Source: an uncultured Schlesneria sp. (lineage in GTDB: Bacteria > Planctomycetota > Planctomycetia > Planctomycetales > Planctomycetaceae). Taken from it: a stretch of 64,000 bases of DNA. The stretch is from positions 1 to 64,000 of the forward strand of contig CAIQIR010000094.1 in NCBI GenBank assembly GCA_903871875.1, read 5' to 3'. Positions 20,583 to 61,235 of the stretch are shown piece by piece (position 1 is the stretch's first letter; the number at the start of each line of letters is the position of its first letter). A program made the translations under genes and the position numbers. The notes beneath the pieces are model-generated. The model was not told the DNA's origin. It did no database searches and saw nothing but the letters and a program-made list of their open reading frames with translations.

Positions 20583-20608
20583 GTTAACTCGGGTAACGCA
20601 TCTTTGTT
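20583..20608 (+). promoter_or_regulatory. GTTAA-N17-GGTT-type promoter signature (one mismatch)
   Basis: GTTAACTC at 20583-20590, then 14 bp, then TGTT at 20605-20608 (consensus GGTT). It is 162 bp upstream of the fasciclin start at 20771. Seven exact copies occur elsewhere in the window, all upstream of genes. Confidence 0.45.
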
Positions 20609-20663
20609 CTTCTGCCTCGTTAAAATTCAAGATTCTGGCGTTTTTGGCGATTTTTCTGAATCC
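20591..20663 (+). repeat. Diverged direct repeat, copy B
   Basis: The counterpart of copy A (19442-19516) in the same orientation: GGTAACGCATCTTTGTTCT, TCAAGATTCTGGCGTTTTTGG and ATTTTTCTGAA. It overlaps the promoter-like signature at 20583-20608 and lies upstream of the first fasciclin gene. Confidence 0.65.
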
Positions 20664-20770
20664 AATCTGGGAATGCGAGCGAACTCATGATCGAGCCGCT
20701 CCGGAAAGAATGTCGCGACAAATTGTTTCAATCCAAAAATGTTCAAACAAACCCGAAAGAAAGTCCCTCA

Positions 20771-21259
20771 ATGAAAACGTTTTCAGTTCGCATGCTCACG
20801 CTCGCATTGATTCTAGGTGTCAGTTCGCTCCTCCGCGCTGAAGACAAGGCGAAGGACATCGTTGATACCGCGGTAGCCGCAGGCAGTTTCAAGACTTTAG
20901 CAGCGGCGTTGAAGGCCGCCGATTTAGTGGACACGCTGAAGGGCAAGGGGCCGTTCACTGTCTTCGCCCCGACTGACGAAGCGTTTGCGAAACTCCCGAA
21001 GGAGACGTTGGAATCTCTGCTGAAGCCAGAGAACAAGAAAAAGCTGGCTGGCATTCTCACCTACCATGTGGTCTCGGGGAAAGTACTCGCCAAGGACGTG
21101 GTCAAGCTGACTGAAGCAAAGACAGTTCAAGGCTCGTCCGTGAAGATCGTTGTGAAAGATGGTAAGGTCACCGTCGATGGAGCGAATGTGACAAAGACGG
21201 ACATTGAAGCAAGCAACGGAGTGATCCATGTGATTGACACGGTCATTCTGCCGAAATAG
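20771..21259 (+). CDS. Secreted fasciclin (FAS1) domain protein
   Basis: 162 aa from the ATG at 20771. The first ~22 residues form a signal peptide ([16 protein letters not shown]). One FAS1 domain follows, with [15 protein letters not shown] (H1) and the late block [13 protein letters not shown] (H2). Such small FAS1 proteins are exported and thought to act in adhesion or surface maintenance. The ECF sigma and RskA-type anti-sigma genes directly downstream recall the mycobacterial SigK-RskA-MPT70/MPT83 arrangement, where FAS1 proteins are sigma targets. A strong hairpin separates it from the sigma gene. Confidence 0.93.
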
Positions 21260-21287
21260 TCCGCGATCTGACGGGATCATTGAATGT

Positions 21288-21319
21288 CCGTGAGGTCGGT
21301 AGCGATGCCGACCTCACGG
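21288..21319 (+). terminator. Perfect 12-bp stem hairpin between fasciclin and ECF sigma genes
   Basis: CCGTGAGGTCGG (21288-21299) and CCGACCTCACGG (21308-21319) form an exact 12-bp stem with an 8-nt loop. No T run follows, so it may be an attenuator or mRNA-stabilising 3' end rather than a classical terminator. It lies 28 bp before the sigma start. Confidence 0.65.
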
Positions 21320-21346
21320 CATTCCTGACCACCAAGGGAGATTGAA

Positions 21347-21913
21347 TTGCAGGTACCAATACTTCCCCGCGTCGCACGAGGTGAGACAAATGCCATTGAT
21401 GAATGCCTAGATCGGTACGGCGGACTTATCTGGTCGCTGGCCTGTCGGCTTTCTCCTTCGACCTCGGATGCCGAAGATGCTGTGCAGGAAATCTTTGTGG
21501 ATTTATGGCGAAACGCAGACCGGTTTCGGGAGGATCTCGGCTCGGAGGTGACATTCGTATCGATCCTCGCTCGTCGACGTTTGATTGATCGCCAGCGGAA
21601 GCTTCGTCGCAATCCCGAACCGCAATCCATCGATGAAACGGATGTCGAATACCCGACTCCAATACCTTCACGTCAAATCGAGTTAGCTGAGGATGGAGTT
21701 CGCGCCACGGCGTGTTTGGAAAAACTGCGACAGAATGAACGTGAGGTGCTGGAACTCTCGATCTATCATGGTTTAGCTCAATCTCGAATCGCCGAGCGCA
21801 CGGGTGTTCCTTTAGGTACGGTTAAAACGCTCATTCGTCGGGCGTTGACGCAGCTTCGCACTTGCATGCAGGTCGGCAGCCGACTGCATGCCGAAGGAGG
21901 TGTTCAACTATGA
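21347..21913 (+). CDS. ECF RNA polymerase sigma factor (SigK-like)
   Basis: 188 aa from a TTG at 21347 with AAGGGAG 9 bp upstream. Region 2 (about residues 20-85, DAEDAVQEIFVDLWRNADRF) and region 4 (about 125-175, LRQNEREVLELSIYHGLAQS and GVPLGTVKTLIRRAL) are complete. The gene overlaps an RskA-like anti-sigma by 4 bp (ATGA) and follows a FAS1 gene. It belongs to the ECF groups that are inhibited by a membrane anti-sigma. It is one of two candidates in this window to read the GTTAA-N17-GGTT signature. Confidence 0.94.
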   Translation: MQVPILPRVARGETNAIDECLDRYGGLIWSLACRLSPSTSDAEDAVQEIFVDLWRNADRFREDLGSEVTFVSILARRRLIDRQRKLRRNPEPQSIDETDVEYPTPIPSRQIELAEDGVRATACLEKLRQNEREVLELSIYHGLAQSRIAERTGVPLGTVKTLIRRALTQLRTCMQVGSRLHAEGGVQL

Positions 21914-22710
21914 GCATTCCCGGGAAACCAGATGCGGACCGCTGGGAAGAACTGCAAATCACGCGATTGTTGTTCGGGCTTTCGTTGGAAGAGCAAGCCG
22001 AGTACGACGAATTCGCCCAAAAGATGCCAGCGGAAACGTCTGAATTCTTCGAACAGGTGGTCGCTTCAATTGATGTGGCCTGGTCGGATCCAAAATCAAT
22101 GCCGCTACCAGAACATCTTCGAGAAACAATCCGCTTGCGAGCGTTAAAAGAATTAACACCGCAGGCGTCTCTCCCTGGCGATAAACCCACTGTCGCCAGC
22201 GTCGTTACCGTTCGATCGAGCAGGCTACCCTGGGTTATCACTGCGGCCTGCATGGCGCTCACGGTGCTGACGATTGCCTCAACCAGACCCATCGGGCCCG
22301 TAGAAGAAGTCTCGCGAGACGCTGCCCAGTTGCGAGCGGAATTGATTTCAGCCGCCAAAGACCTTGTACGAGTCAAGTGGTCCGATGGGCCAACCCCGAT
22401 CTCAGGCGCGGAGGGCGATGTTGTCTGGAGCCCATCACAGCAACAAGGGTACATGCGTTTTCGCGGGCTCGCTGTCAATGTGCCCACCGTTCAACAGTAT
22501 CAACTGTGGATCTTCGACAAGAACCAGAGTGATAAAACGCCAATTGACGGAGGTGTTTTTGACATCATTTCAGATCAGGAAGTCATTATTCCCATTCAGG
22601 CGAAGTTGCGAGTTCAAGAGGCCTACTTGTTCGCAATCACGATCGAGAAGCCGGGCGGAGTGGTCGTTTCTTCACGTGAAAGATTGCCACTTGTGGCTAC
22701 TGTCAATTGA
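21910..22710 (+). CDS. Anti-sigma factor with RskA C-terminal domain
   Basis: 266 aa from the ATG at 21910, overlapping the sigma stop. The N-terminal ~90 residues form the cytoplasmic sigma-binding part. A transmembrane helix lies near residues 107-123 (WVITAACMALTVLTIAS). The extracytoplasmic part carries the anti-sigma-K pattern YQLWIFDKNQSDKTPIDGGVF. It is expected to hold the upstream ECF factor at the membrane until released by an external signal, probably proteolytically. Confidence 0.9.
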   Translation: MSIPGKPDADRWEELQITRLLFGLSLEEQAEYDEFAQKMPAETSEFFEQVVASIDVAWSDPKSMPLPEHLRETIRLRALKELTPQASLPGDKPTVASVVTVRSSRLPWVITAACMALTVLTIASTRPIGPVEEVSRDAAQLRAELISAAKDLVRVKWSDGPTPISGAEGDVVWSPSQQQGYMRFRGLAVNVPTVQQYQLWIFDKNQSDKTPIDGGVFDIISDQEVIIPIQAKLRVQEAYLFAITIEKPGGVVVSSRERLPLVATVN

Positions 22711-22775
22711 TCAGATTGTCGATTCAGACGACTCGCTCGCAGTATTGTGAAACAAAGTTTCATTGAGGATCGATT

Positions 22776-23657
22776 ATGAAAGAATGGCCTCGTTCTCTTC
22801 TTTTCGCAGGTGCGTATTTCGCACTCGTCTTTTCGCAACTCGCACAGAATTCTGAAGCTGAGGATGGGAAAATGTCCCGAACCGATACAGCCACGAAGCT
22901 CGACACAGCACTTCGTGCTGCGGACTCACTGCGAGATTCAGAGCGGCAAATCTCTCTTTTTCAATCTGCCGCAGACGAAGCGCTGAAAACGATGCCCGCG
23001 AATGTCTTAGTCGAAGAAGCCTTTCAGCGAGTCCAAAAAAGCATGAGTACCGATGCCCGGAAGTTGGCAAAAGAGTGGCGGTCAGCGTTAATTGAAGCTC
23101 GCGATATTCTTCAGTTCGAGCCCGTAAAAGAATCTCCGCTTCCTGACGGATTTCCTGAACTGACGCCGGTCGGTGAAATTCGATTGCAGCAGTACCCGAA
23201 ATACCGGCTGGCGAGAACGGACATGACGTTCATGGAAGGGAGTGCATTTTGGACACTCTTCAATCACATTAAGGAACGCGACATCGCCATGACGGCACCA
23301 GTGGAAATGACATATGCTGACGATGGGAAAACGGCGACGAAGCAATCAACGATGTCCTTCATGTATCGCAGTACTCAGCAAGGCCAACTTGGCACCGCGG
23401 GCAAGGTACAGGTCGTCGACATTCCCGCGCAGATGGCGGTCAGTATTGGCATTCGGGGAAATGCCAATAAGGGACGCATCGCCGATGCCAAACGCCGCCT
23501 AGAAAGCTGGTTACATGTTCATCGTGACGAGTATGAATCGGCCGGACCACTCAGAGTCATGGGCCACAATAGTCCGTTCATTGCCGAAGAAAAGCAATTT
23601 GCTGAGATACAGATTCCTGTTTGTGTGAAACACTCTCAGAGAGCAGTCACGCCTTAA
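22776..23657 (+). CDS. Exported SOUL-family heme-binding protein
   Basis: 293 aa with an N-terminal signal peptide (about residues 1-28). The SOUL/HBP domain spans about residues 125-290, with Y.KYRLART, the family block DIAMTAPVEMTY and a late PFI..E.....IQIPV. SOUL proteins bind heme or other tetrapyrroles. The region between (about 35-110) is helical and not assigned. The gene follows the anti-sigma gene by 65 bp on the same strand, and a porphyrin-binding role fits the tetrapyrrole and photo-stress theme of the neighbourhood. Confidence 0.88.
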   Translation: MKEWPRSLLFAGAYFALVFSQLAQNSEAEDGKMSRTDTATKLDTALRAADSLRDSERQISLFQSAADEALKTMPANVLVEEAFQRVQKSMSTDARKLAKEWRSALIEARDILQFEPVKESPLPDGFPELTPVGEIRLQQYPKYRLARTDMTFMEGSAFWTLFNHIKERDIAMTAPVEMTYADDGKTATKQSTMSFMYRSTQQGQLGTAGKVQVVDIPAQMAVSIGIRGNANKGRIADAKRRLESWLHVHRDEYESAGPLRVMGHNSPFIAEEKQFAEIQIPVCVKHSQRAVTP

Positions 23658-29438: not shown

Positions 29439-29648
29439 TCAGTTAGGGAGTTGACCCGCGTCCCCGGTGCGGATCTTCATCGTTCCCCTCAGGATCCATT
29501 CCGCATGCTCTGCCTTGAGGCCAGTCCCACTGGGAACTTTGATGTTCATGTCAACGAACTCATAAGCGATAACGGCGTTCTGGCCAGTCAGTTGGTCGTA
29601 GAGGCCGACAGCAAGTTCGGGCCAATTTGTCGTATGCTCAGTCGTCAT
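29439..29648 (-). CDS. Small conserved protein, paralogue of the 37675 gene
   Basis: 69 aa from the ATG at 29648 with GGAG 7 bp upstream. It is about 70% identical by eye to the 69-aa protein at 37675-37884 (shared MTTEHTTNWP, LTG.NAVI.YEF.DM, PSGTG..AEHAEW). No transmembrane segment or known domain. It seems to be the last gene of a minus-strand operon headed by a FAS1 gene under a GTTAA-N17-GGTT signature. The paralogue also has this signature directly upstream, so both copies probably belong to one regulon. Confidence 0.8.
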   Translation of the reverse strand: MTTEHTTNWPELAVGLYDQLTGQNAVIAYEFVDMNIKVPSGTGLKAEHAEWILRGTMKIRTGDAGQLPN

Positions 29649-29773
29649 GTCAATCTCCAAAAGTTGGGCGGTCAGAAAATGAAAGTCGTCAACGCAATCG
29701 AAGTGGTCGAGAAGTTCGCAGGCATGAGGTCAATGATTTGGCCGATCACGAATTCGATCAGTTCCCGAATGGG

Positions 29774-30161: not shown

Positions 30162-30569
30162 TTATTTAGGCAGCATCACGCTGTCGATGATGTGAATGAC
30201 GCCGTTGGTGCAGACGATGTCCGTCTGGAGGACTGTCGCACCGTCGACCTTCACTCCGGCAGCGGTGTCAATCGCAAGATCTTGGCCCTGCACCGACTTG
30301 GCTGATTTCAGCTTCAATACATCGGCGGCCAAGACCTTACCCGCGACCACATGGTGCGTTAGCACACCCTGTAGCTTTGCTTTATTTTCCGGTTTCAGGA
30401 GATCTGCGACTGCGGCGGCAGGAAGCTTGCCGAAAGCATCATCTGTCGGCGCGAACACCGTAAACGGGCCCGTCCCTTTGAGTGTGTCCACCAGGCCGGC
30501 AGCTTGGACGGCAGCCACCAAGGTCTTGAAAGATCCCGCCGCCACAGCCGTGTCAACAATGTCATGCAT
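30162..30569 (-). CDS. Single-domain fasciclin (FAS1) protein without signal peptide
   Basis: 135 aa from the ATG at 30569 ([14 protein letters not shown]), chosen because AGGGA lies 9 bp upstream; a TTG six codons earlier adds nothing useful. The FAS1 domain is complete, with H1 [15 protein letters not shown] and the late [13 protein letters not shown]. Unlike the FAS1 proteins at 20771 and 39966 it lacks a signal peptide, so it may stay in the cytoplasm or use another route. It heads an operon with two tiny membrane proteins and a 69-aa protein. Confidence 0.9.
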
Positions 30570-30623
30570 TTGCAGTTTCCCTAGCAATAAGTCAGATCAG
30601 GAACGAGGCTCGTTCACGCAAAA

Positions 30624-30637
30624 CGTTCATATCGTTC
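30624..30637 (-). promoter_or_regulatory. Leader element GAACGATATGAACG
   Basis: This 14-mer on the minus strand lies 10 bp downstream of the -10-like GGTT of the FAS1 operon. The same sequence occurs at 37933-37946 (exact) and at 41041-41054 (GAACGATTTGAACG), with the same spacing to GGTT (10-11 bp). It may be an operator or a 5'-leader element. Confidence 0.55.
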
Positions 30638-30647
30638 ATGCTGATGA

Positions 30648-30673
30648 AACCGTGAACTCGGCCCAGACTTAAC
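30648..30673 (-). promoter_or_regulatory. Promoter signature GTTAA-N17-GGTT (exact)
   Basis: On the minus strand GTTAAGTC (30673-30666), 14 bp, then GGTT (30651-30648), 78 bp before the FAS1 start at 30569. The flanking AATTCCC just upstream is shared with the copy at 37958-37983. Confidence 0.65.
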
Positions 30674-31008: not shown

Positions 31009-32199
31009 TTATGCAAAAGCTGATAGCCCAGTCAGATGCTCGCCGAGAATCAATAGATGCATATCGTCGGTTCCTTCATACGTGGAAACGGTTTCCAGAT
31101 TGCACATGTGTCGGAACGAGACGTGTGCGTCGAGAATTCCAACGCCACCCAGGATTTCGCGAGCGGTGCGGGCCACCCACAACGCCATCGCCACATTTTT
31201 TCGTTTGGCCATCGAAATCTGCACATAACTTGCTTGGCCGGAATCTTTCAATTGAGCCAGTCGACAGGCCAGCAGTTGAGCATTCGTGATTTCGGTTGCC
31301 ATCTGGGCCAGCTTGCGCTGCACGAGTTGAAATGCGGCCAGCTGTCTACCGAATTGAATTCGGCCTAACGAATAGTCACGAGCCTCTTCAAAACAGGCCT
31401 GCGCTGCTCCGAGCACGCCCCATGCGATTCCGTAGCGTGCGTGATTTAGACATTGGAGAGGTGATTTCAGGCCGTTGGAACCAGGCAGCAACGCGCTGTG
31501 TGGAACTTTGCAACTATTGAATTCCAACCGGCAGGTGACCCCGATCCGCAACGAGTATTTTCCGTCGATTACCGATGCGCTGAGTCCCGGCGTCCCACGT
31601 TCCACCAAAAAGCCTCGAATAGCGGCGGGGTTTCCCGGGTCTATACCTGACTCCCCTTCGAGCTTAGCCCACACGACGGCCACATCAGCGAGTATCCCGC
31701 CGCCGATCCACATCTTGGATCCGGTCAATTCGTATCCGTCAAGCGTCTTCACAGCTCGAGTCTCCATTCCGCCGGGGTCGGACCCGTGTTGCGGTTCCGT
31801 CAGCCCAAAGCATCCCAGCCTTTGCCCGCGGGCCATCCCTGGAAGCCAGCGTTGCTTTTGTTCTTCACTGCCAAACAAATGAATCGCCGTCATCGCCAAC
31901 GATCCTTGTACTGAAACGAATGTGCGCAACCCCGTATCGCCACGTTCCAGTTCTTGCAGAGCTAACCCGTATCGCAAGGCGCTCCAACCGGCGCAGCCAT
32001 ATCCCTGAATATGGGCGCCGAAAACACCCAATTCTGCGATTTCTGGAAGCAGTTCCAGCGGGAAGGTTCCTTCATTCCAGCATGGATTGATCTTCGGTAC
32101 GAATCGAGTCTGAACCCAGTGACGGATCTTTCCTCTCACTGACTTGTCTTCGTCAGAAATCAAATCATCAAGCCGATAAAGATCGAGACTCTCGGACAT
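31009..32199 (-). CDS. Acyl-CoA dehydrogenase (glutaryl-CoA-dehydrogenase-like)
   Basis: 396 aa, the normal length. The N-terminal helical domain is followed by the FAD-binding GCFGLTEPQHGSDP, the middle beta domain with LTGSKMWIGGG, and the C-terminal helices ending in AREILGG.GI and TVSTYEGT(D)DMH with the catalytic-region motif YEGT. It is an FAD enzyme that oxidises acyl-CoA thioesters; the substrate is not fixed by sequence. An exact GTTAA-N17-GGTT signature lies 293 bp upstream, so it may belong to the same regulon as the FAS1 genes. Confidence 0.93.
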   Translation of the reverse strand: MSESLDLYRLDDLISDEDKSVRGKIRHWVQTRFVPKINPCWNEGTFPLELLPEIAELGVFGAHIQGYGCAGWSALRYGLALQELERGDTGLRTFVSVQGSLAMTAIHLFGSEEQKQRWLPGMARGQRLGCFGLTEPQHGSDPGGMETRAVKTLDGYELTGSKMWIGGGILADVAVVWAKLEGESGIDPGNPAAIRGFLVERGTPGLSASVIDGKYSLRIGVTCRLEFNSCKVPHSALLPGSNGLKSPLQCLNHARYGIAWGVLGAAQACFEEARDYSLGRIQFGRQLAAFQLVQRKLAQMATEITNAQLLACRLAQLKDSGQASYVQISMAKRKNVAMALWVARTAREILGGVGILDAHVSFRHMCNLETVSTYEGTDDMHLLILGEHLTGLSAFA

Positions 32200-32492: not shown

Positions 32493-32518
32493 AACCGTGA
32501 CCCCGCAAGAAAGTTAAC
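32493..32518 (-). promoter_or_regulatory. Promoter signature GTTAA-N17-GGTT (exact)
   Basis: On the minus strand GTTAACTT (32518-32511), 14 bp, then GGTT (32496-32493). The next recognisable gene in this direction is the acyl-CoA dehydrogenase (start 32199). The 32200-32585 gap otherwise holds no supported gene, and the distance is longer than for the other copies. Confidence 0.5.
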
Positions 32519-37674: not shown

Positions 37675-37884
37675 TCAGTTTGGGCCTTGAGCCGACTGCT
37701 CGGTACGGATCTTCACGGTCCCGTTTAACACCCATTCTGCGTGTTCTGCTGCGGCACCAGTGCCGCTGGGAATCTTGACGTGCATGTCCAAGAACTCATA
37801 ACCGATCACCGCATTCTTCCCCGTCAGTCGTTCGTACAGTCCCATCGCCAGATCAGGCCAGTTGGTTGTGTGTTCGGTCGTCAT
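37675..37884 (-). CDS. Small conserved protein, paralogue of the 29439 gene
   Basis: 69 aa; the start at 37884 has GGAG 8 bp upstream. It is about 70% identical by eye to the protein at 29439. It is soluble, with no signal peptide and no recognised domain. An exact GTTAA-N17-GGTT signature lies 73 bp upstream together with the GAACGATATGAACG leader element, and a hairpin follows the stop, so it looks like a one-gene transcription unit under the shared regulator. Confidence 0.82.
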   Translation of the reverse strand: MTTEHTTNWPDLAMGLYERLTGKNAVIGYEFLDMHVKIPSGTGAAAEHAEWVLNGTVKIRTEQSAQGPN

Positions 37885-37932
37885 CTCAATCTCCAGGGTT
37901 CTTAATTATGAGGCTGATTATGAACTACAAAA

Positions 37933-43452: not shown

Positions 43453-43466
43453 AGGATGACGCCATC

Positions 43467-47984: not shown

Positions 47985-47987
47985 ACC

Positions 47988-48776: not shown

Positions 48777-48873
48777 TTCCGCGACCGCCCCACCGAGCAC
48801 GGGTGACCGACGGTATGAAAGGTCGCGACGAGTATTTTGAAAGTGCTTCTACTAATTTCGGAGCTTCCAATTG

Positions 48874-49290
48874 ATGAAGAAGATCTGTGTTGGAGATCGA
48901 GCCCCCGATTTCTTTGCCGTTGCAAACACAGGGCAGGTCATTCGATTGACGGATTATCTCCATCATCAGGCGGTTGTGCTGTTCTTTTACCCCAAGGACG
49001 ATTCGCCAGGATGCACCATGCAAGCCTGCGCCTTTCGGGACGCCTATGAAGACTTTGCAACGGCAGAAGCCGTTGTGATCGGCGTAAGTGACGATATGCT
49101 CGAAAGCCATCGTCAATTCGTCGTGAAACGACGGTTGCCGTTCCTCCTTCTGAGCGACTCCGATGGTCAGATCAAGACGGCTTTCGGTGTTCGCAAAACC
49201 TTTGGCCTCTTCCCCGGCCGCGTAACTTATGTCATCGATCGACAAGGCATCGTGCGTTTGATTGCGAACTCGCAATTAGATGTTTTGTGA
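48874..49290 (+). CDS. bcp: Bcp/PrxQ peroxiredoxin truncated by a TGA near its C-terminus
   Basis: 138 aa from the ATG at 48874 (a TTG lies one codon earlier). The active-site block FYPKDDSPGCTMQACAFRD has peroxidatic and resolving Cys five residues apart. The frame ends at TGA (49288-49290) after NSQLDVL, but continues open for 31 more codons to 49386, encoding HVREALQIVREQ, which is the normal Bcp C-terminal helix. A CGA-to-TGA change would explain this. The catalytic core is complete, so the short form may still work. Confidence 0.85.
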   Translation: MKKICVGDRAPDFFAVANTGQVIRLTDYLHHQAVVLFFYPKDDSPGCTMQACAFRDAYEDFATAEAVVIGVSDDMLESHRQFVVKRRLPFLLLSDSDGQIKTAFGVRKTFGLFPGRVTYVIDRQGIVRLIANSQLDVL

Positions 49291-49392
49291 CATGTTCGCG
49301 AGGCGCTACAGATTGTCCGTGAACAGACTTCAGCAAAAGAGCCCGATGAATTCACAGAACCTTCCTTGAACAGAAAATCTGGTTGAAAATTG

Positions 49393-50379
49393 ATGAAACA
49401 CGAAAGAGTGGGGATCATCGGAGCAGGAATCGCAGGACTCGTTTGCGCCGATCGGCTTCATCGCGAAGGGATCGCGGTCACGATCCTGGAGAAATCTCGT
49501 GGCGTTGGTGGACGATCTGCAACCCGACGTCTGGATGAATCTAGTTGTGATCACGGTGCCCAGTACTTCACCATCAGTGATCCACTTTTTGCGGAACGAA
49601 CTGCCGAGTGGCGTAAACAGGGCGTTGTCGATGTTTGGCAAGGGCGGATTGTCTCGATCGAAGCAGGTATGATTCGCGATCTTAACCAGCCACGTGAGCG
49701 TCTCGTTGGCACACCGGGCATGAATAGTATCGGAAAATATCTGGCCCTGAATTTGGACGTGAGAAGCAACATTGAGGTCGAAGGCGTGGAACGCTTGGAC
49801 GAGCACTGGCGAGTTGTAGATAATGCAGGTCATGCATACGGGCCGTTTGATGTCCTGATTTCAACGGCACCGCCTTTTCAAACTTCGCGACTTTTCTCCG
49901 AATGGTCTCAGCAATTGGCCGAACAACTCGAATGCGTCATGATGCTACCGTGCTGGACGGTAATTCTGCGTTTTTCCGCTCCGTTAACGATCGAGTTTGA
50001 CGGTGCCTTTGTCAACGGCTCGCCGCTGAGCTGGATCGCTCGGAATAACAGCAAGCCGGGACGCGGGGCGCCAGAGTGTTGGGTGCTCCATGCATCCGCC
50101 GAGTGGTCAGCGTCGCAAGTTGACGGCGAGCCTGCAGAAGTGGGATCCGCATTGACGAATGAGTTTTGGAAACTCTTTGGTAGAGAACTTGCGCGTCCAT
50201 CGCTCGTCGTCTCTCATCGATGGCGTTATGCGCTACCTCGTGATGTTTTGCCGATGCGATTCTTGTTCGACGACAAATTACGGATGGGATGCGCCGGTGA
50301 CTGGTGTGGAGGGCCACGGATTGAGGGTGCTTTTCTCAGCGGCGACGCGTTGGCAACTCATCTCCTCGAAAAACAATAA
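49393..50379 (+). CDS. Renalase-like FAD-dependent oxidoreductase (COG3380)
   Basis: 328 aa from the ATG at 49393. N-terminal FAD motif VGIIGAGIAGLVCADRL, then ILEKSRGVGGRSATRR and DHGAQYFT, which identify the COG3380 renalase-type group, and a C-terminal CAGDWCGGPRIEGAFLSG that closes the FAD site. Bacterial members oxidise aberrant dihydro-nicotinamide forms or have unknown substrates. They are frequent in light- and oxidative-stress regulons. It follows the peroxiredoxin closely. Confidence 0.92.
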   Translation: MKHERVGIIGAGIAGLVCADRLHREGIAVTILEKSRGVGGRSATRRLDESSCDHGAQYFTISDPLFAERTAEWRKQGVVDVWQGRIVSIEAGMIRDLNQPRERLVGTPGMNSIGKYLALNLDVRSNIEVEGVERLDEHWRVVDNAGHAYGPFDVLISTAPPFQTSRLFSEWSQQLAEQLECVMMLPCWTVILRFSAPLTIEFDGAFVNGSPLSWIARNNSKPGRGAPECWVLHASAEWSASQVDGEPAEVGSALTNEFWKLFGRELARPSLVVSHRWRYALPRDVLPMRFLFDDKLRMGCAGDWCGGPRIEGAFLSGDALATHLLEKQ

Positions 50380-50574: not shown

Positions 50575-50600
50575 GTTAACAATATTGATTCAATGCGGTT
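50575..50600 (+). promoter_or_regulatory. Promoter signature GTTAA-N17-GGTT (exact)
   Basis: GTTAACAA (50575-50582), 14 bp, GGTT (50597-50600), 102 bp before the alpha/beta hydrolase start. The spacer end ATTCAATGC is almost the same as in the copy before the sigma gene (53038-53063). Confidence 0.62.
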
Positions 50601-50702
50601 TTTCGATAAGTGACCGAGCAGCTTCGTCGGTCGTGTTCATTCTCGGTGAAAGCAGGCAAGATGTTGTCAATGGCATTCACCTGAGCTTCAATCGTCAAGG
50701 TG

Positions 50703-51374
50703 ATGGTATTTATGAGCGTCGCGTTCGCGAGTGGTGCAGGACAAGTGAAAAAAGTCCGATCCCGAGATTTGATTGTGCTCGTTCACGGACTGGGAGGGAA
50801 TTCGCTGTGGATGTTACCAATCAAGTGGCGGCTTGTTGGTCTTGGGTACCGTTGTTTGACTTGGAGTTACGCGAGCTTTCGCAAATCGATCTCTACGCAT
50901 GGTCGGCAACTGCGTGAGTTTTTGGAGACCGAGTTGGCCGCTGAGAAGCGTGTACATTTTGTGGCGCATAGCATGGGTGCCATAGTCGTCCGCGCAGCAG
51001 TTGCATCGGCACCGCCTGAAAATCTGGGGCGTGTCGTTTTTTGGGCCTCACCGAATTCCGGTTCAGCTGCGGCTTTGGCGATTGACCGATTGAGTCGATC
51101 ACGCTTTCAAACGATTTCAGAACTCTCCAGCCGGCGTGACAGTTTTGTCAATCGCTTGCCTGTCTGGTGCGGCCGAGACCTGGGCATTATTGCTGCCAAA
51201 TTCGATTCGGTCGTGTCACTTGAGAGCACTTTTGCGATCAATCAAACGGATCACGTGATTGTCAATGCGACCCACGCGGGGGTGCTGTTCTCTCGCCAGG
51301 CCGCATTACAGACCGCGAGCTTTCTGAAATATGGACGATTTCGGCAACCATTACGCATCACTTATCGCTCATGA
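50703..51374 (+). CDS. Alpha/beta hydrolase (lipase-like)
   Basis: 223 aa from the ATG at 50703 (a GTG lies one codon upstream). VLVHGLGGNSLWMLPIKWRL forms the oxyanion-hole region and HFVAHSMGAIVVR carries the nucleophile in AHSMG. A candidate Asp lies in the region around 150-175 and a late His in NATHAGVL. It resembles PGAP1/esterase-type hydrolases that act on lipids. An exact promoter signature upstream links it to the shared regulon. The gene converges with the folE pair. Confidence 0.87.
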   Translation: MVFMSVAFASGAGQVKKVRSRDLIVLVHGLGGNSLWMLPIKWRLVGLGYRCLTWSYASFRKSISTHGRQLREFLETELAAEKRVHFVAHSMGAIVVRAAVASAPPENLGRVVFWASPNSGSAAALAIDRLSRSRFQTISELSSRRDSFVNRLPVWCGRDLGIIAAKFDSVVSLESTFAINQTDHVIVNATHAGVLFSRQAALQTASFLKYGRFRQPLRITYRS

Positions 51375-51546: not shown

Positions 51547-52047
51547 TTAGAGTGGTTGAAGCTCTTGAGTGCCTTCAGCCTGGGCACACAACTGTGAATG
51601 TCGTCGATGAGGATAACGACTGTCATCGACCCAGTCCTCACGAGTGTACGTGACGACAGACGTATCGGTCTCTCGAACGTCGATTCGTTGGAGTCGAAAA
51701 CCAAATTCGGTAATTTCGGTGAAAAGCTGATAAGCCAGATTCTCGACAGTTGTCGGGGCATCGAAAATCTTCATTCGCAGTGTCTCACCCGTGCGCTCCA
51801 TATGCGAACACAATGTTTCAAAAAGCGGATCGGCGGAATGGATCAGCATCGCGTGGTCATAATGATTCTTCAGCAAAGGCTCAATTTGTTCGTCGAAATC
51901 GGCAAAGAGCGTACTGATTGCACCAGTACGTTCGACTTCGAAGAAGCAACTCACCCCGTATCGGTGTCCATGCAGGTTTCGGCACTTATCCAACAATTGT
52001 TCGTTGCGATGGGCCGCGTAAAATTTGTAGTCTTTCTGAATAATCAT
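51547..52047 (-). CDS. 6-pyruvoyl-tetrahydropterin synthase/QueD homologue
   Basis: 166 aa from the ATG at 52047 with AAAGAG upstream; the longer frame lies over folE and is a shadow. The zinc and catalytic block CRNLHGHRY (C...HGH) is complete, followed by DFDEQIEPLLK..YDHAMLI and a late PTTVENLAYQLF. It converts dihydroneopterin triphosphate to a tetrahydropterin or to carboxy-tetrahydropterin; which one is open. folE lies 104 bp upstream on the same strand and supplies its substrate. Confidence 0.9.
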   Translation of the reverse strand: MIIQKDYKFYAAHRNEQLLDKCRNLHGHRYGVSCFFEVERTGAISTLFADFDEQIEPLLKNHYDHAMLIHSADPLFETLCSHMERTGETLRMKIFDAPTTVENLAYQLFTEITEFGFRLQRIDVRETDTSVVTYTREDWVDDSRYPHRRHSQLCAQAEGTQELQPL

Positions 52048-52151
52048 GAACTTTTCTCTTTCAAGGTTCGTGCAGGTACACATGCGGATCGGTGTTGATT
52101 GAAATGACGTGGACGCCCGCTTTGACCCCGTCGATCTTTCCCGACTTGCCT

Positions 52152-52805
52152 TCAATTTGTGATCAACGACATGACTTCGGCGCGACTTGCCGGATTCGAT
52201 TTGAACAGCCCTCGCACGGCGCTCGTAATGGTGCGACTCCCCGGCTTGCAAACACCCCGAATGCTCATGCATGAATGCTCGGCGCTGATCACGACTGCGA
52301 CGCCTTTCGTTTCTAATTCAGCCTCGATCAGGTCCGCGATCTGCTGAGTTAAACGCTCTTGCACCTGAGGTCGATGGCCAATTTCCTCGACGACACGAGC
52401 AAGCTTACTCAGTCCAGTGACACTTCCATTGGGGAGATAGGCGACATGAGCCACTCCCGAAAATGGCAATAAATGATGCTCACACATGCTGGTGAAACCA
52501 ATATCTCGCACGAGCACCATTTCGTCATAAGATTCAGCGAACTTCACCCGGAGATGGCGAGCCGGATCCTGGGAAAGTCCTGAAAACATCTCTGCGTACA
52601 TCTTCGCCACTCTTCTTGGTGTCTCAAGTAGACCATCACGATCCGGATCTTCACCAACAGCCTTCAAAATCGTTCGAACAGCTTGTTCAATCGCCCTCAA
52701 ATCGACCGGTTGAGCCGCCCGGTTGTCGATCCGCTCCGGCAACTCGGAATTACAACGAAGTTCGATTGCTTGAATTCTTGTTTCTCGTGTTCGCAAGATA
52801 GTCAT
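52152..52805 (-). CDS. folE: GTP cyclohydrolase I
   Basis: 217 aa from the ATG at 52805. All hallmarks are present: [20 protein letters not shown], the zinc-binding [15 protein letters not shown]-like [10 protein letters not shown] and the late [17 protein letters not shown]. It makes dihydroneopterin triphosphate from GTP. folE is a recurrent member of LitR-controlled light regulons, where pterin may serve as a photolyase or cryptochrome chromophore. An exact GTTAA-N17-GGTT signature lies 72 bp upstream. Confidence 0.96.
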
Positions 52806-52877
52806 CGGGGTTCCTGAAATTATCAGTGATGTCGGTCGTGTATGGGCATAGAACTCAGTCTGCTCCAACGGCTGTCT

Positions 52878-52903
52878 AACCGTCGTTCGCGAGCCGAGTT
52901 AAC
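52878..52903 (-). promoter_or_regulatory. Promoter signature GTTAA-N17-GGTT (exact)
   Basis: On the minus strand GTTAACTC (52903-52896), 14 bp, GGTT (52881-52878) followed by AGACAG, 72 bp before folE. It lies back to back with the plus-strand copy at 53038 in the folE/sigma divergent region. Confidence 0.66.
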
Positions 52904-53037: not shown

Positions 53038-53063
53038 GTTAAGACGACAATTCAAATGCGGTT
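53038..53063 (+). promoter_or_regulatory. Promoter signature GTTAA-N17-GGTT (exact)
   Basis: GTTAAGAC (53038-53045), 14 bp, GGTT (53060-53063) followed by AGTGTCAG, similar to the folE copy (AGACAG). It is 132 bp before the sigma-factor start and suggests the sigma gene is itself under this control. Confidence 0.66.
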
Positions 53064-53195: not shown

Positions 53196-54197
53196 ATGGC
53201 CCATCGACTACGCAGGATGAGATCATCTCGTGATCAGTGTGCCCTGCCCGATTCCGAGGCGTCGGTAAAGCTTCGGCAAGAACTAATTCCGCGTGGCACA
53301 CTTATTGAACGAACGCGTGAATTGATGGAATTGACGATCGATTTCGTTCACCACCCTTTGTTCGAACTTGCCGATGCGACGAAACGGATTCAGGCTCTAC
53401 GCCCTGGTTCACTCGACGTACCGCCAGAAGCCACTCAAGTCGGTTCCGGTGTGGCGTTCGTTTCGGGGATGGTGAAAACGCCGCTTCTGACTCCGGAGGA
53501 GGAACGATACTGGTTTACCTTGATGAATTATCTGAAATTCCGAGCCGAACGGAATCGACGATTGCTTGACCTCAGTAGGCTTAACAATTCTCTGATTAAA
53601 CGAATCGACGCCGATCTTAATGAGGCTCGTCGCGTTCGAAATCACATCGTGGAAAGTAACCTTCGATTAGTCGTTGCGCTTGCTCGGAAATTCTCAGACT
53701 CCTTGGAACAACTGTCGGAACTGACCAGTGAGGGAACCACACCGTTGATTCGATCTGTGGAATTGTTCGATGTCAGCTTGGGGTATCGCTTCAGCACCTA
53801 TTCCACGTGGGGGGTGCGAAATCAAATGCTGCGTTATTTGAAGCGTGTGAGATCAACACGACTGAGATCGGTAACCGAAGACGATCTTCGGTTTGAGAAT
53901 CTTCCTGATCAACGAACTTGCGAGAAAACGGATGAATTAGCCAATCAATTACGAGTAACTGTTGTTAATCGCCTCCTGGCGTCGCTCTCTGAGCGAGAAA
54001 AGTTCGTGATTCAAGCCCGCTTTGGACTGGACGGTCATTCGCGTGGGCAAACTCTGGAGGCGATTTCGAAGCAAATCGGCTTGAGCAAAGAGCGCGTTCG
54101 TCAAATTATCTTTTCGTCGGTCTCGAAGTTGAGAAGCGAGATGCAACTTGAGGATTTCGCGTCCCTTGATTCAGCACATGGATCAGATGATTTTTGA
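53196..54197 (+). CDS. Sigma-70-family RNA polymerase sigma factor
   Basis: 333 aa, ATG at 53196 with GAGGAG 9 bp upstream. A long N-terminal part (about 1-140) precedes region 2: IVESNLRLVVALARKFSD and, near 190-210, FDVSLGYRFSTYSTWGVRNQ (2.3-2.4). Region 4 is clear: LSEREKFVIQARFGL and LEAISKQIGLSKERVRQI. It resembles group 2/3 sigma factors but with a shortened region 3. Its own promoter carries the signature found upstream of FAS1, folE and hydrolase genes, so it is either the master or a target in a cascade. The next gene starts 21 bp after the stop. Confidence 0.92.
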   Translation: MAHRLRRMRSSRDQCALPDSEASVKLRQELIPRGTLIERTRELMELTIDFVHHPLFELADATKRIQALRPGSLDVPPEATQVGSGVAFVSGMVKTPLLTPEEERYWFTLMNYLKFRAERNRRLLDLSRLNNSLIKRIDADLNEARRVRNHIVESNLRLVVALARKFSDSLEQLSELTSEGTTPLIRSVELFDVSLGYRFSTYSTWGVRNQMLRYLKRVRSTRLRSVTEDDLRFENLPDQRTCEKTDELANQLRVTVVNRLLASLSEREKFVIQARFGLDGHSRGQTLEAISKQIGLSKERVRQIIFSSVSKLRSEMQLEDFASLDSAHGSDDF

Positions 54198-55801: not shown

Positions 55802-55827
55802 GTTAAGACTCAGCACCTTCTGCGGAT
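55802..55827 (+). promoter_or_regulatory. GTTAA-N17-GGTT-type signature (one mismatch)
   Basis: GTTAAGAC (55802-55809), 14 bp, GGAT (55824-55827), 72 bp before the peroxiredoxin start, the same distance as for folE. Confidence 0.5.
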
Positions 55828-55899
55828 AACGGTATGGACGATGAAATCATTTAAAGATTGATCATCGCGTGGACTGTCGTCATCTGTATGAGAGAGATC

Positions 55900-56442
55900 A
55901 TGAGCATTCGAGTAGGTCAGCCAGCGCCGCATTTTGAAGTTCAGGGGTACGATCGGCAAAAGGACGATACCGAACAGCAATTTCGAAAGATTGCGCTGTC
56001 TGATTTTACGGGGCAGTGGATTTGCCTCTTCTTTTATCCTCGGGATTTCACGTTCGTTTGTCCAACGGAGATTGCGGCGTTTAACAGCAGCGTCGGTGAT
56101 TTCGCGGAAAGAAACTGTGTAATACTGACCGCCAGTACCGACAGTGTCTACGCACACAAGGGGTGGTGTGACAGTCATCGTGACCTGAAGAACCTCAAGT
56201 ATTTGATGCTTTCAGACGTGAACCACAGGCTTTCGGCTGCGTTCAACGTGCTTGACGAGGAACAGGGCCTGGCTCAACGTGGAATTTTTCTGATCGACCC
56301 GAAAGGAAGTGTACGCTGGCTCGCGGTGAACGACCTGGGCGTCGGTCGCAATGTTGCTGAAGTCCTTCGTGTGCTCGAAGCACTTCAGACCGATGCACTC
56401 GTTCCCTGCAACTGGAAGCCGGGCGATCCGACTCTCGGATGA
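55900..56442 (+). CDS. AhpC/Prx1-type 2-Cys peroxiredoxin
   Basis: 180 aa from the ATG at 55900 (GAGAGATC upstream). The peroxidatic Cys lies in FYPRDFTFVCPTEIAAF and the resolving Cys in VPCNWKPGD near the C-terminus, as in typical 2-Cys peroxiredoxins. It reduces H2O2, organic hydroperoxides and peroxynitrite in the cytoplasm. No ahpF or dedicated reductase is adjacent. A one-mismatch promoter signature lies 72 bp upstream, and a broken dps gene follows 107 bp downstream. Confidence 0.94.
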   Translation: MSIRVGQPAPHFEVQGYDRQKDDTEQQFRKIALSDFTGQWICLFFYPRDFTFVCPTEIAAFNSSVGDFAERNCVILTASTDSVYAHKGWCDSHRDLKNLKYLMLSDVNHRLSAAFNVLDEEQGLAQRGIFLIDPKGSVRWLAVNDLGVGRNVAEVLRVLEALQTDALVPCNWKPGDPTLG

Positions 56443-57099: not shown

Positions 57100-58140
57100 T
57101 CACCGCGTTGCGGGTGGCCTGCCGGTGGAGATGGGATACTGGCAGCAATCAACTGGGCAGACATCGTGACTCGGCCCACAACTTCCAATTGACCGCCGTT
57201 CGGTAACGTGGCCGAGTCTTTCCTGAATCAATTCGCAAACCATTGAAACGAATTGGGGGTGAGTTCCAACCGTGCCGGCACGAGATAATATCACTCCGAG
57301 TTCTTCGCATAGTTCGCGAGCTTCTTCGTCGAGATCGAAGAGGATTTCCATATGGTCCGAAAGAAAACCTATCGGCGCAATGACCAGCGACGCTTCCCTT
57401 CGACTCTTGAGGTTCCGAATGTGATCCAGAATGTCGGGCTCCAGCCACGGGTCAGACGGTCTTCCACTACGGCTTTGGTAAACCAGGTTCCAACGATCTG
57501 GAGAAAGCTTCAAATCGTCGACGATCAGTCGGCAAGTCTCGGTCAGTTGTGCAACATAGTTACAGTGGACGGCCATGCTACGCGGAATGCTATGTGCCGT
57601 GAACGCAATTGAAGTGGATCCGCGCATCGCTTCGGGAAGGCGATTCAACGCTTCGCGAATCCGATCTGCGTTTGCCGCGATGAAGTCGGGATGATTGTAA
57701 AAAACGCGAATTTTATCGACGGTCGGTGCGTTGATGCCGACCTCGGACCGCGCCTGTTCGATATTCTCACGGTATTGTCGACAACCGGAATACGAACTGT
57801 ATGCCGACGTGACGAATGCCAGGGCGCGTTTGACACCATCTTCCGACATTTTCCGAAGCGTATCCCCGAGCAGCGGGTGCCAGTTGCGATTGCCCCAGTA
57901 AACAGGAAGATCAATCGCAGCACGATTGAGTTCGTGCTGGAGCGATGTCATCAGTTCACGGACCTGAGAGTTGATTGGGCTAACGCCGCCGAAGTGATAG
58001 TAGTGCTCAGCGACTTCCAGCATTCGTTCCCGAGGGACTGGCTTGCCTCTCAGCACGTTTTCCAGAAATGGAATCACGTCGTCCGGCTTTTCCGGACCAC
58101 CGAAAGAAACAATCAGCAAGGCATCGTAGCGTTCAGACAC
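57100..58140 (-). CDS. hemH: Ferrochelatase
   Basis: 346 aa. Start ALLIVSFGGPEKPDDVIPFL, the substrate region with the catalytic His in FTAHSIPRSM, and the second family block VYQSRSGRPSDPWLEPDI and PIGFLSDHMEILFDLDEEA. It inserts Fe2+ into (copro)porphyrin in heme synthesis. The C-terminal CGPSHDVCPVDCC cluster could hold a [2Fe-2S] centre, as in some bacterial and animal ferrochelatases. It is the third gene of a minus-strand operon after mqo, with a 75-bp gap. Confidence 0.96.
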   Translation of the reverse strand: MSERYDALLIVSFGGPEKPDDVIPFLENVLRGKPVPRERMLEVAEHYYHFGGVSPINSQVRELMTSLQHELNRAAIDLPVYWGNRNWHPLLGDTLRKMSEDGVKRALAFVTSAYSSYSGCRQYRENIEQARSEVGINAPTVDKIRVFYNHPDFIAANADRIREALNRLPEAMRGSTSIAFTAHSIPRSMAVHCNYVAQLTETCRLIVDDLKLSPDRWNLVYQSRSGRPSDPWLEPDILDHIRNLKSRREASLVIAPIGFLSDHMEILFDLDEEARELCEELGVILSRAGTVGTHPQFVSMVCELIQERLGHVTERRSIGSCGPSHDVCPVDCCQYPISTGRPPATR

Positions 58141-58215: not shown

Positions 58216-59715
58216 TCAGATTAGCTGCAAGATTTCATCTGCGTGCTGGTGTGCGGCATAAAATCGCTCGGAATTCGCAGCCAGCTTGATGTCCTCATTA
58301 TAAGTGGGAATCATCGTCTTCATCTGAGTGCGACCGTGAGGGCTGGCCAAAAGATGTGGGAAACACTTCTTGATGACTTTGAACATGATGTTCACGGAGA
58401 CCGAAGCACCAGGTGACGCACCGAGCAGCGCCGAGATACTGTGATCTGCGTCCGTGATTACCTCGGTACCGTAGTGAACAATCCCCGTTCGTCCATCCGT
58501 CTTTTTGATTGCCTGTACACGGATGCCGGCGTCAATCAATTTCCAGTCATCTATTTTGGCCGCGGGATAAAAGACGTGAAGCACCTTAAGGCGATCAGCC
58601 ATGCTTTGCGTCCCTTGCTGGATCAGATAGCGGACAAGATCGAGATTGGAGAATCCTATTTTCATCAGGGTCAGAAGATTGTCCGAGCGCACAGAAAAAG
58701 GGAGGTCCGTAAAACGGCCTTTCTTGTGGAGAAACTTGGTTGTCCACGCTGCAAACGGGCCAAAAAGCAGAGTTCTTCTGCCATCGAGAATCCGCGTATC
58801 GAGATGTGGAACAGCCATCGTCGGAGCCGCATCAAGCGCCTGTCCATAGACTTTCGCCTGATGCCTCCCGACGATCTCGGTATTGTCACACGTCAGCCAT
58901 TGGCCACCGATAGGAAATCCACCGAGTCCCCTTGCTTCAGGAATACCTGCGGTTTGCAGTAATGGCAGACTTCCTCCCCCCGCGCCAACGAAGACGAATT
59001 TTGCGCGGTTCGTGTGAACTTCACCCGCGGCCAAATACTCGGCCCGTACTTCCCACGTGGAGTTCACTTTTCGTAATCCTACGACTCGATGGCCGCGAGC
59101 GATTCCACATCCTTCCTGCCGTTCGAACCATTTCAGGAGCTTCCGCGATAATGCGCCGAAATTCACATCCGTTCCACCATTCATCTTTGTCGCGGCGATC
59201 GGCACGCTGCCACGGCCTTCGATCAAAAGCGGAGCCCATAAGGCAATAGTGTCACGTTCCGTGGAATACTCCATTTCCCTGAAGAAATGATGGACTTTCA
59301 TGCCGGCGTACCGGGCTCGTAGAAAATCGACCTGCGCTTCGCCGTGCACAAAACTCAGATGCGGGACAGGGTTAATAAATTCCTTCGGGTTATCGATCAG
59401 GCCACTGGAGACGGCATAACTCCAGAACTGTTTGGATTGTTCAAATTGCTCAAAAATCTCAATTGCTTTCGCCACCTTTACGGATCCGTCCGCCTCACGT
59501 GTCGGCGTGTAACTGAGTTCGCAGATACCAGCATGTCCGGTGCCGGCATTGTTCCAGCCGTCCGAACTTTCCTGCGCCAAGCCGTCTGCGACTTCATAGA
59601 GCTGGATGGAAAGTCGCGGCTCTAACAGCTTCAGCATCACCCCAAGGTTCGCGGACATGACCCCGCTACCAATCAGGATCACATCTGGATTCTCAACATA
59701 TTGAACATGGGACAT
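58216..59715 (-). CDS. mqo: Malate:quinone oxidoreductase
   Basis: 499 aa, full length. The FAD-binding start VILIGSGVMSANLGVML, then the MQO-specific SSDGWNNAGTGHAGICEL.YTP and the substrate region VPHLSFVHG. It is a peripheral membrane flavoprotein oxidising malate to oxaloacetate and passing electrons to quinone. It is the second gene of an operon with a FAD monooxygenase-like gene upstream and hemH downstream, an unusual combination. Confidence 0.96.
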   Translation of the reverse strand: MSHVQYVENPDVILIGSGVMSANLGVMLKLLEPRLSIQLYEVADGLAQESSDGWNNAGTGHAGICELSYTPTREADGSVKVAKAIEIFEQFEQSKQFWSYAVSSGLIDNPKEFINPVPHLSFVHGEAQVDFLRARYAGMKVHHFFREMEYSTERDTIALWAPLLIEGRGSVPIAATKMNGGTDVNFGALSRKLLKWFERQEGCGIARGHRVVGLRKVNSTWEVRAEYLAAGEVHTNRAKFVFVGAGGGSLPLLQTAGIPEARGLGGFPIGGQWLTCDNTEIVGRHQAKVYGQALDAAPTMAVPHLDTRILDGRRTLLFGPFAAWTTKFLHKKGRFTDLPFSVRSDNLLTLMKIGFSNLDLVRYLIQQGTQSMADRLKVLHVFYPAAKIDDWKLIDAGIRVQAIKKTDGRTGIVHYGTEVITDADHSISALLGASPGASVSVNIMFKVIKKCFPHLLASPHGRTQMKTMIPTYNEDIKLAANSERFYAAHQHADEILQLI

Positions 59716-59724
59716 CGGTTGGCT

Positions 59725-60972
59725 TTACGCGAGTGCCTCGATCGCAGTATGGGAATTGACCGCATCTTGGATTAGTGCCAAAGTCTCGTCCAGTTCGGGG
59801 CGGAACAGGTCACCGATCAGTAGGTCCGTGATATCGCCTTTTCGATGCGGATGCTGAGCGACAAACTTGCCGAAGCTCAACCCGGAATAATAAGCCAGAA
59901 CCAGTTGCCGCATTCGCTCCATGCCACGAAAGTACTCTGTCTCCCAGCAACTCAATTGAGCCTGGGAAGTATCGCCTCTGGCCAGCCCATCGCATATTGC
60001 GTCTGCTGCCAGTTCCCCTGACTTCAACGCCAGCAGCACTCCCGAAGAATAGAGGGGATCCAAGAATCCGAGGGCGTCACCCACAAGTACCCAGCCGTTC
60101 CCTGCGGCAACACGTGAACGATACGAATATTCCTTGGCGACACGGTAAATGTCTGCTCGCCGAGCCTTGCTGATTCGCTGTTTCAGCGCCGGGCACTTTT
60201 CCACCTCGGCTTGATAGATCGATTCAAAGTCTTTCAAGTCACGATTGCCAAAAAGGTAATCATGTGAGGCCACCACGCCGACACTCACAATGTCGTCATG
60301 CAAAGGAATGTACCAGAACCAGCCCTGCTTACCTTGCAGTTGCAAAACGACTGTCGCACCCTCGTCCCGACCAATATCGCGCTGAGCGCCCTGCCAGTAG
60401 GTCCAGCACGCTGCCTTTCTCAAAAGCGGATCCCGCTGTCGGAGTCCCAGCTTGCCCATGATCAGGGTACTTTGCCCACTCGCATCGACAATGACGTCTG
60501 CTCGTTCGATTCTGTCATTTGCTCCATCCTCGCCCTGCACGCGTACACCGACGGCTCGATCGCCTTCAAAGATGACATCCACGACGCGCACACCATGCTG
60601 CACTTCGACCCCATGTTCTGCGGCGTTCTCAAGCATCAATCGATCAAACTCGCTGCGTCGAACCTGCCAAGTCTGAGACGATTCATGTGGATTGTTGTCG
60701 AGGAAATAAAACGGTTCGGAAAGACGGCCGTTGGAGGCCACAAACTGAACGCTGTATTTCTTGATGAATTTGCTTTCTTTCAGCTTCGAAAGCATGTTGA
60801 GACGTTTGAGGACCCAATAGGTCTGCGGGATCAGCGACTCGCCAATATGGAACCTTGGAAATCTCTCTCGCTCGAGAAGACGAACTCGGTAGCCCCGTTG
60901 AGCAATCAAAGTCGCCGCAGTTGCTCCAGAAGGCCCACCGCCGATAACGATGACAGTCGGTAGACTTTGCAA
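59725..60972 (-). CDS. FAD-dependent oxidoreductase of the tryptophan-halogenase/geranylgeranyl-reductase superfamily
   Basis: 415 aa from a TTG at 60972 with AGGAG 7 bp upstream; a TTG at 61005 has no such site. FAD motif VIVIGGGPSGATAATLIAQRG, then RFHIGESLIP (halogenase-like), a central GWFWYIPLHDD and a C-terminal VGDALGFLDPLYSSGV binding FAD. The halogenase catalytic Lys is not obvious, so hydroxylation or reduction of an aromatic or isoprenoid substrate is as likely. It heads the operon with mqo and hemH. Confidence 0.85.
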   Translation of the reverse strand: MQSLPTVIVIGGGPSGATAATLIAQRGYRVRLLERERFPRFHIGESLIPQTYWVLKRLNMLSKLKESKFIKKYSVQFVASNGRLSEPFYFLDNNPHESSQTWQVRRSEFDRLMLENAAEHGVEVQHGVRVVDVIFEGDRAVGVRVQGEDGANDRIERADVIVDASGQSTLIMGKLGLRQRDPLLRKAACWTYWQGAQRDIGRDEGATVVLQLQGKQGWFWYIPLHDDIVSVGVVASHDYLFGNRDLKDFESIYQAEVEKCPALKQRISKARRADIYRVAKEYSYRSRVAAGNGWVLVGDALGFLDPLYSSGVLLALKSGELAADAICDGLARGDTSQAQLSCWETEYFRGMERMRQLVLAYYSGLSFGKFVAQHPHRKGDITDLLIGDLFRPELDETLALIQDAVNSHTAIEALA

Positions 60973-61186
60973 AACACAAAACTCCTGTTTCTCGGGGTTA
61001 GTCAAGTTTTCTCGGCGCGGCTGTTGATGCGATAAGGGGTCGCCCCACTGTTAATGCACGTCCAGAATTTTGATATCCCATTTCAGCAGCAGACTTTTCG
61101 ACAACTTTCGACACCAATACCTGGTCGCAAGCCGTGCCACCCACAACCGCTTTTTTTCAACTTGCGCTCTTGTTTGCTACAGCAAG

Positions 61187-61235
61187 CACCGCAATTTTTA
61201 AAGAGACTTAACAGAGATTTTCAAAGTTTCTTAAC
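61187..61235 (-). promoter_or_regulatory. Two overlapping GTTAA-N17-GGTT-type signatures (one mismatch each)
   Basis: On the minus strand GTTAAGTC (61212-61205) is followed after 14 bp by GGTG (61190-61187), and GTTAAGAA (61235-61228) is followed after 14 bp by TGTT (61213-61210). They lie 214-237 bp before the FAD oxidoreductase start. The rest of the 61006-61430 gap has no gene. Confidence 0.4.

Follow-up and report, generated by a model that had tools for sequence, protein, structure and literature searches.

A 64,000-nucleotide stretch of DNA from an uncultured Schlesneria sp. (positions 1 to 64,000 of contig CAIQIR010000094.1), which is the whole stretch analysed here and is called the window, carries repeated copies of a two-block element, the box, upstream of its genes. 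Judged from its copies, the box has the core GTTAA-N16-CGGT, followed by a last base that varies. We consider it rather likely that the two blocks form the -35/-10 pair of a class of alternative-sigma promoters of a planctomycete family, which in this genus would be read by an RpoD-like sigma factor without region 3, encoded at 53196 in the window, and by a paralogue of this factor encoded on contig C93. Both sigma factors are predicted to transcribe their own genes from the box, which would create a positive feedback. They would also serve a dispersed target set comprising FAS1 proteins, a second folE with a PTPS gene, mqnA, DCC and SRPBCC proteins, and probably an operon of mqo and hemH.

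An earlier note on this DNA had described the element as GTTAA-N17-GGTT and had listed seven exact, intergenic copies. All seven are present, with coordinates and strands correct, and all seven are intergenic according to a codon-usage gene caller trained on the genes of the window; 100 dinucleotide shuffles contained 0.16 exact copies on average and 1 at most. In each of the seven, C precedes GGTT and C or G follows GTTAA, which gives the form GTTAA-N16-CGGTT. On the minus strand, the copy at 30648-30673 stands before a FAS1 gene (30162-30587, Fasciclin), that at 37958-37983 before a small open reading frame (ORF; 37675-37884) that had not been named before, that at 41065-41090 before a two-domain FAS1 gene (39966-41012), where the box is kept in relatives, and that at 52878-52903 before folE (52152-52868), which is followed by the PTPS gene (51547-52272). 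When a nearby in-frame ATG is used, these four are 78, 73, 79 and 72 bp from the start codon, respectively; that is, four copies, and not five as had been claimed, lie at 72-79 bp. On the plus strand, the copy at 50575-50600 precedes an alpha/beta hydrolase gene (50700-51374; called start 99 bp downstream), and that at 53038-53063 precedes the sigma gene (53196-54197; ATG 132 bp downstream), where it is kept throughout the clade of this sigma. For the remaining copy (32493-32518, minus strand), the nearest called gene, an acyl-CoA dehydrogenase (31009-32199), starts 293 bp away. No exact box occurs between 41.1 and 50.5 kb of the window. Because the copies at 30648 and 37958 have flanking sequence in common, and both share a leader element with the copy at 41065, these three are not independent.

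The genome (7.61 Mb in 178 contigs, the window being on contig C94 of 67,412 bp) contains 33 copies of the nine-base form, 16 of GTTAA-N16-CGGTT and 8 of GTTAAS-N15-CGGTT, and seven copies of each of the last two are in the window. At equal base composition, about 14.5 copies of GTTAA-N16-CGGTT are predicted. Since 16 copies are close to this random expectation, there is no genome-wide excess, and the signal lies in location and conservation. A reversed-pattern control, although different in make-up from the motif, agrees on the absence of an excess: it was more frequent than the motif in 14 of the 15 genomes of the genus (motif versus control, 25 versus 40 in G006 and 10 versus 15 in G003). 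As for location, copies of the CGGTT form are intergenic in 14 of 16 cases, compared with 3 of 17 when another base precedes GGTT (Fisher p = 9e-5). The former value falls to 13 of 16 should the 60-amino acid (aa) ORF that covers the copy on C93 be genuine; we took this ORF, which lies upstream of the second sigma gene, as spurious. Outside the window the difference persists (7/9 versus 3/17, p = 0.009). The clustering of 7 of the 16 copies in 64 kb has a random probability of about 3e-11, though three of them are not independent.

In the relatives, the intergenic share of exact copies was 8/17 in G001, 8/13 in G002, 6/9 in G005, 12/21 in G006, 7/8 in G007 and 13/17 in G014, and among the classed copies 5/9 in G012 and 4/6 in G010. 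Given this mixture of genic and intergenic positions, many exact copies in the relatives are due to chance. These values come from the copies examined with their flanks, namely all of those in G000 (16), G001 (17), G005 (9), G007 (8), G012 (9) and G014 (17), together with 13 of 14 in G002, 21 of 25 in G006, 6 of 9 in G010 and 2 of 10 in G003; those of G004, G008, G009, G011 and G013 were mostly left out of the classing.

Conservation was examined in 400-bp upstream regions that were picked by protein and not by motif, with spacers of 11-22 and up to one mismatch. At spacer 16 on the coding strand, the box was found in 14 of 16 sigma, 25 of 42 mqnA and 11 of 29 mqnE regions. At the other spacers, the sigma set gave 4 matches at spacer 17 and none elsewhere, the mqnA set 0-2 and the mqnE set 0-1, and the opposite strand gave 0-1 in each of the three sets. 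These results indicate two blocks at a fixed spacing and in one orientation upstream of orthologous genes, which is the layout of an alternative-sigma promoter that the earlier note had proposed. For mqnA, the box was present in 12 of the 15 genomes of the genus (9 exact) and before 13 of 27 genes outside it (6 exact), compared with about 1% in shuffles; eight of those in the genus were initially spotted by the motif, whereas those outside it were not. For mqnE, 3 of the 11 boxes were exact, and 10 of 16 genomes outside the genus were boxed; the independent count is 10 of 28, because the query came from G032, itself found by the motif. Among the 22 of 26 FAS1 genes examined, 12 were boxed, including 8 of 9 with frames of two-domain size (344-382 aa) and none of the 9 in a shorter group to which the window gene 20687 belongs. 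The folE set gave 1 of 16 at spacer 16 and 2 of 16 on the opposite strand. Thus folE, which had been named as a target, does carry the box in the window, but the other 15 folE genes do not, and we rejected it as a conserved target.

The product of 53196 is a 333-aa factor of the sigma-70 family. Pfam finds regions 2 and 4 in it, region 3 was not found at E values up to 10, and 29 residues separate the matched parts, compared with 88 in mycobacterial SigB. A match to region 1.2 was below threshold (14 bits, cut-off 22). The best NCBIfam hits were cyanobacterial RpoD, RpoS and SigB, all under their cut-offs; the broad sigma70-ECF superfamily model was passed (86.7, cut-off 42.9), and the best match in the PDB was SigB. 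RpoD-type factors were nearer to this protein than those of the extracytoplasmic function (ECF) type. By these profile matches, it is an RpoD-like factor without region 3. A second sigma gene, on C93 at 12532, is 62% identical to it and has a box at 12213. Orthologues of at least 45% identity were found in 14 of the 15 genomes of the genus, with two copies each in G000 and G014; outside it, a single further genus (G015) has one.

Upstream of each of the 17 sigma genes of this clade, among them 53196, which the earlier note had named as a target, lies the box or a close variant of it. Eleven are exact, three end in CGGTG (G010, G011 and G012), one reads CGATT (G013) and two have spacer 17 (G008 and G009); shuffled upstream regions reach one mismatch in 0.7%. 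In contrast, none of 19 more distant sigma genes had the box at one mismatch. This difference fits a sigma factor that controls its own gene. The earlier note had asked whether relatives with a sigma of the 53196 or 21347 type share the element; those with the former do, and nothing was found that ties the box to the latter. In the tree, the clade forms one side of a branch with support of 100/99. Its members have RN[QHE]M in region 2.4, whereas most other sigmas have MKN[FY]. Where mycobacterial SigB has W, Q and T in this region, the 53196 protein has G, N and L. The corresponding Q and T of E. coli sigma-70 contact the first position of its -10 element. With these residues changed, an altered second block is plausible. 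One subclade has also lost the last T of the box, at its sigma promoters (10/10 versus 0/4) as well as at its mqnA promoters (9/9 versus 0/4).

The element had been taken to define a 40-kb regulon. This description is too narrow, because the box also stands before the second sigma gene and mqnA elsewhere in the genome, and before menaquinone and isoprenoid genes in other genera. Within the genus, the clusters of genes behind it are the sigma genes, mqnA (8 species), an SRPBCC-domain membrane protein (4), a DCC thiol oxidoreductase (4), an MBOAT protein (3), an SDR (3) and FAS1; apart from sigma and FAS1, they were named via Pfam on one member each. Single cases include a peroxiredoxin in G007 and a bacteriorhodopsin-family gene in G014 (L161:3537-4376, plus strand), which starts 79 bp behind an exact box and adjoins a boxed FAS1 gene. 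Of the 56 copies classed in six genomes from other genera, 40 were intergenic; the 57th copy is that of mqnA in G024. Five of these six had been chosen for an exact mqnA box, and mqnA is therefore no independent count there. The genes behind the box in other genera included, over NCBIfam cut-offs, menaquinone decarboxylase, UbiE/MenG, MqnE, farnesyl diphosphate synthase and IspH, and, under the cut-off, a second prenyl synthase. They also included two PF02621 proteins, MqnD by eye, and DCC, DUF2071, DUF1731 and DUF4166 proteins; the remaining ones had no link to quinones. In the source genome the quinone link consists of mqnA and, via a CGGTG variant at 61187, the mqo and hemH operon.

We infer three things from these data: a promoter function of the box, its binding by the 53196 sigma, and light or photo-oxidative/redox stress as the signal. 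Among the sigma factors considered, that of 53196 is to us the best candidate reader. Several observations weigh against this reading. An exact mqnA box is present in G022, G024 (only 79% complete), G025, G035 and G040, which represent five genera and whose best sigma match is 30-36% identical to 53196. In G004, which belongs to the genus and is 89% complete, exact boxes stand on mqnA and FAS1, and no sigma of the clade was found. Within the genus, only 1 of 13 mqnE genes was boxed. At FAS1, the shift of the last base was not significant (4/7 versus 1/5, p = 0.29), and the table of the last T omits G009 (T, spacer 17) and G013 (CGATT) and includes G004, with inherited changes counted separately. 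Beside 53196 no anti-sigma was recognised, the neighbour 54219 being without a Pfam or NCBIfam match. Finally, the gene of a long sigma factor is boxed in G025 (exact) and in G000 (one mismatch). Because mqnA is boxed in five genera where no 53196-type sigma was found, another sigma probably reads the box too. Either the code is common to related sigma factors, or the 53196 sigma belongs to the targets, as part of a cascade.

It is possible, although we regard it as doubtful, that the box is the promoter for another family-wide sigma. This could be an ECF factor or the long factor that lacks region 3 (about 570 aa), and the 53196 gene would then be only one target and a cascade step. The boxes in the five genera and in G004, the boxed mqnE genes outside the genus, the boxed long sigma genes of G025 and G000 and the -35 helix KER[VI]RQ, which the long sigma has in common with that of 53196, are in favour of this explanation. 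The long sigma gene, however, is unboxed at 16 of 18 loci and at all 19 of a further set, compared with the box or a variant in all 17 members of the 53196 clade, and its region 2.4 is unlike that of the clade. One RpoD-type and one short sigma are included in the 18 loci, some of which repeat loci of the set of 19. With 0/19 and 2/18 loci boxed, the long sigma was rejected as an autoregulated reader. We think it improbable that the two blocks are the operator of a DNA-binding regulator such as the LitR/CarH-like protein of 41181, even though its gene and a boxed FAS1 gene of the window are divergently oriented and LitR-like genes occur in 14 of the 15 genomes of the genus, because G012 has no LitR-like match and nevertheless retains the box at its sigma gene, at mqnA and at further genes. 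The box is also non-palindromic, with a single orientation and a single spacer, and the known LitR operator pattern, T(G/A)TACA-N12-TGTA(C/T)A, had no match in the window at up to one mismatch. In Pseudomonas, the LitR operator sits at sigma-70 promoters, according to one study (PMC9758184). Chance together with local duplication is a very improbable explanation. It can draw on the leader shared by three of the seven copies, on the near-random number of 16 in the genome, and on the one-mismatch copies of the window, which are mostly chance (17 matches, 7 exact and 10 with one mismatch, versus a shuffle mean of 7.0). Against it stand the 0.16 exact copies expected in the window and the box kept, with one spacer and on one strand, before protein-chosen genes of other genomes.

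Two further observations concern the sigma genes. A CsrA-like gene, recognised by eye, is convergent on the sigma gene in six loci (L066, L069, L070, L071, L075 and L076). The long sigmas of the relatives (about 560-610 aa; L046, L048, L050-L052, L054-L060, L368 and others) align with 53196 over their C-terminal half, no region 3 lying between the aligned parts, and have a long N-terminal part that looks helix-turn-helix-like by eye.

As a tentative proposal that may well prove wrong, GTTAA-N16-CGGT could be a family-level promoter class that defines an undescribed regulon of menaquinone/isoprenoid and redox-stress genes. Its readers would be RpoD-like sigmas that have lost region 3 and for this reason use a promoter geometry like that of ECF factors. 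One genus would have duplicated such a sigma, made it autoregulated and recruited FAS1, pterin and photo-oxidative genes. The titles and abstract openings of the open-licence papers searched described neither this promoter nor any sigma regulon for planctomycete menaquinone synthesis. If the proposal is true, it would offer a readable promoter code for a planctomycete family, tie quinone supply to a stress-type sigma, and provide a natural example of a primary-type sigma that functions without region 3.

The promoters of EcfG-type ECF factors (group 4) have the form GGAAC-N16/17-CGTT. The box resembles them in having a five-base block, 16-17 bases and a four-base block, and the 53196 sigma resembles the factors in having regions 2 and 4 without region 3 and in its autoregulation, which is here predicted. 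The first block, however, is GTTAA and not GGAAC, and the sigma is closest to RpoD, RpoS and SigB and has no recognised anti-sigma. To these group 1/2 sigma-70 factors it is linked by its best PDB and NCBIfam profile matches and by the -35 helix KERVRQI, which is kept, whereas region 3 is missing, region 2.4 is altered and CGGT replaces TATAAT. RpoE-ChrR (ECF11) promoters have the form TGATCC-N18-TA; this form had no match in the window, where 1.0 is expected by chance, and no ChrR was recognised among the proteins scanned. The kinds of genes nevertheless overlap with the RpoE-ChrR singlet-oxygen regulon in cyclopropane and furan fatty acid genes (PMC7380195). The window likewise resembles the Pseudomonas LitR/CarH light regulon (PMC9758184) by its LitR-like regulator, SDR, flavoprotein oxidoreductases, cyclopropane-synthase/UfaM-like genes and folE. 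It is this gene content that suggests a light or photo-oxidative stress signal.

The regulator gene itself (41181-42167, plus strand), divergent from the 41065 box, is given as context. Its protein matches MerR/HTH_17 and B12-binding_2 in Pfam, and the CarH equivalog model gave 47 bits (cut-off 400). A Tyr is aligned with the His of chain 8jbs, the B12-ligating residue in LitR/CarH photoreceptors; the histidine is thus absent, and the substitution fits a class II type. The region 41181-50379 continues with genes for a PQQ-propeller protein, a flavoprotein, two cyclopropane-synthase-like proteins, a DUF1295 protein and a flavoprotein. Similar arrangements are found in proteobacteria, in light-induced clusters such as the LitR region of Pseudomonas (PMC9758184) and in furan fatty acid clusters (PMC7380195).

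The four one-mismatch copies of the earlier note are all present in the window, but six more had not been listed (7533, 21821, 22184, 25810, 36954 and 49661). The copy at 61187-61212 (minus strand) ends in CGGTG and stands before a FAD/halogenase-like gene (59725-61005), mqo (58216-59715) and hemH (57100-58140). It is probably a box, and the same variant is found on the sigma promoters of G010, G011 and G012. The copy at 55802-55827 (plus strand; CGGAT), 30 bp before an AhpC-type peroxiredoxin gene (55858-56442), is a possible but weak box, and that at 61210 has no CGG. The copy at 20583 lacks CGG as well, and none of the 9 FAS1 genes of similar size, that of the window included, is boxed at one mismatch. 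We rejected it as a conserved FAS1 promoter; the claim is not supported rather than disproved, because the size grouping was post hoc and orthology was not tested.

The FAS1 gene concerned opens a plus-strand series (20687-23657) that continues with an ECF sigma (SigK-like model 114 bits, cut-off 226), a protein with an RskA C-terminal domain and a SOUL protein, an order reminiscent of the mycobacterial SigK-RskA-MPT70/83 set. The small minus-strand ORFs 29439-29660 and 37675-37884 (73 and 69 aa) look like paralogues by eye; the latter is directly behind a box and the former behind the boxed FAS1 gene. In G006, three near-identical stretches (C196, C237 and C245), each with an exact box, are probably a repeated element.

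The shared leader contains the repeat GAACGATNTGAACG, at 30620-30637, 37929-37946 and 41037-41054 on the minus strand. It is also present at G006:C91:46303, G001:C99:33781, G005:C51:87908 and G002:C172:8163, and its settings are FAS1 leaders and sites a short distance upstream of a different sigma paralogue (31-34% identity to 53196). Lying downstream of the box, it was considered as a possible second promoter half. With a trailing TT, it occurs exactly in 8 of the 15 genomes of the genus.

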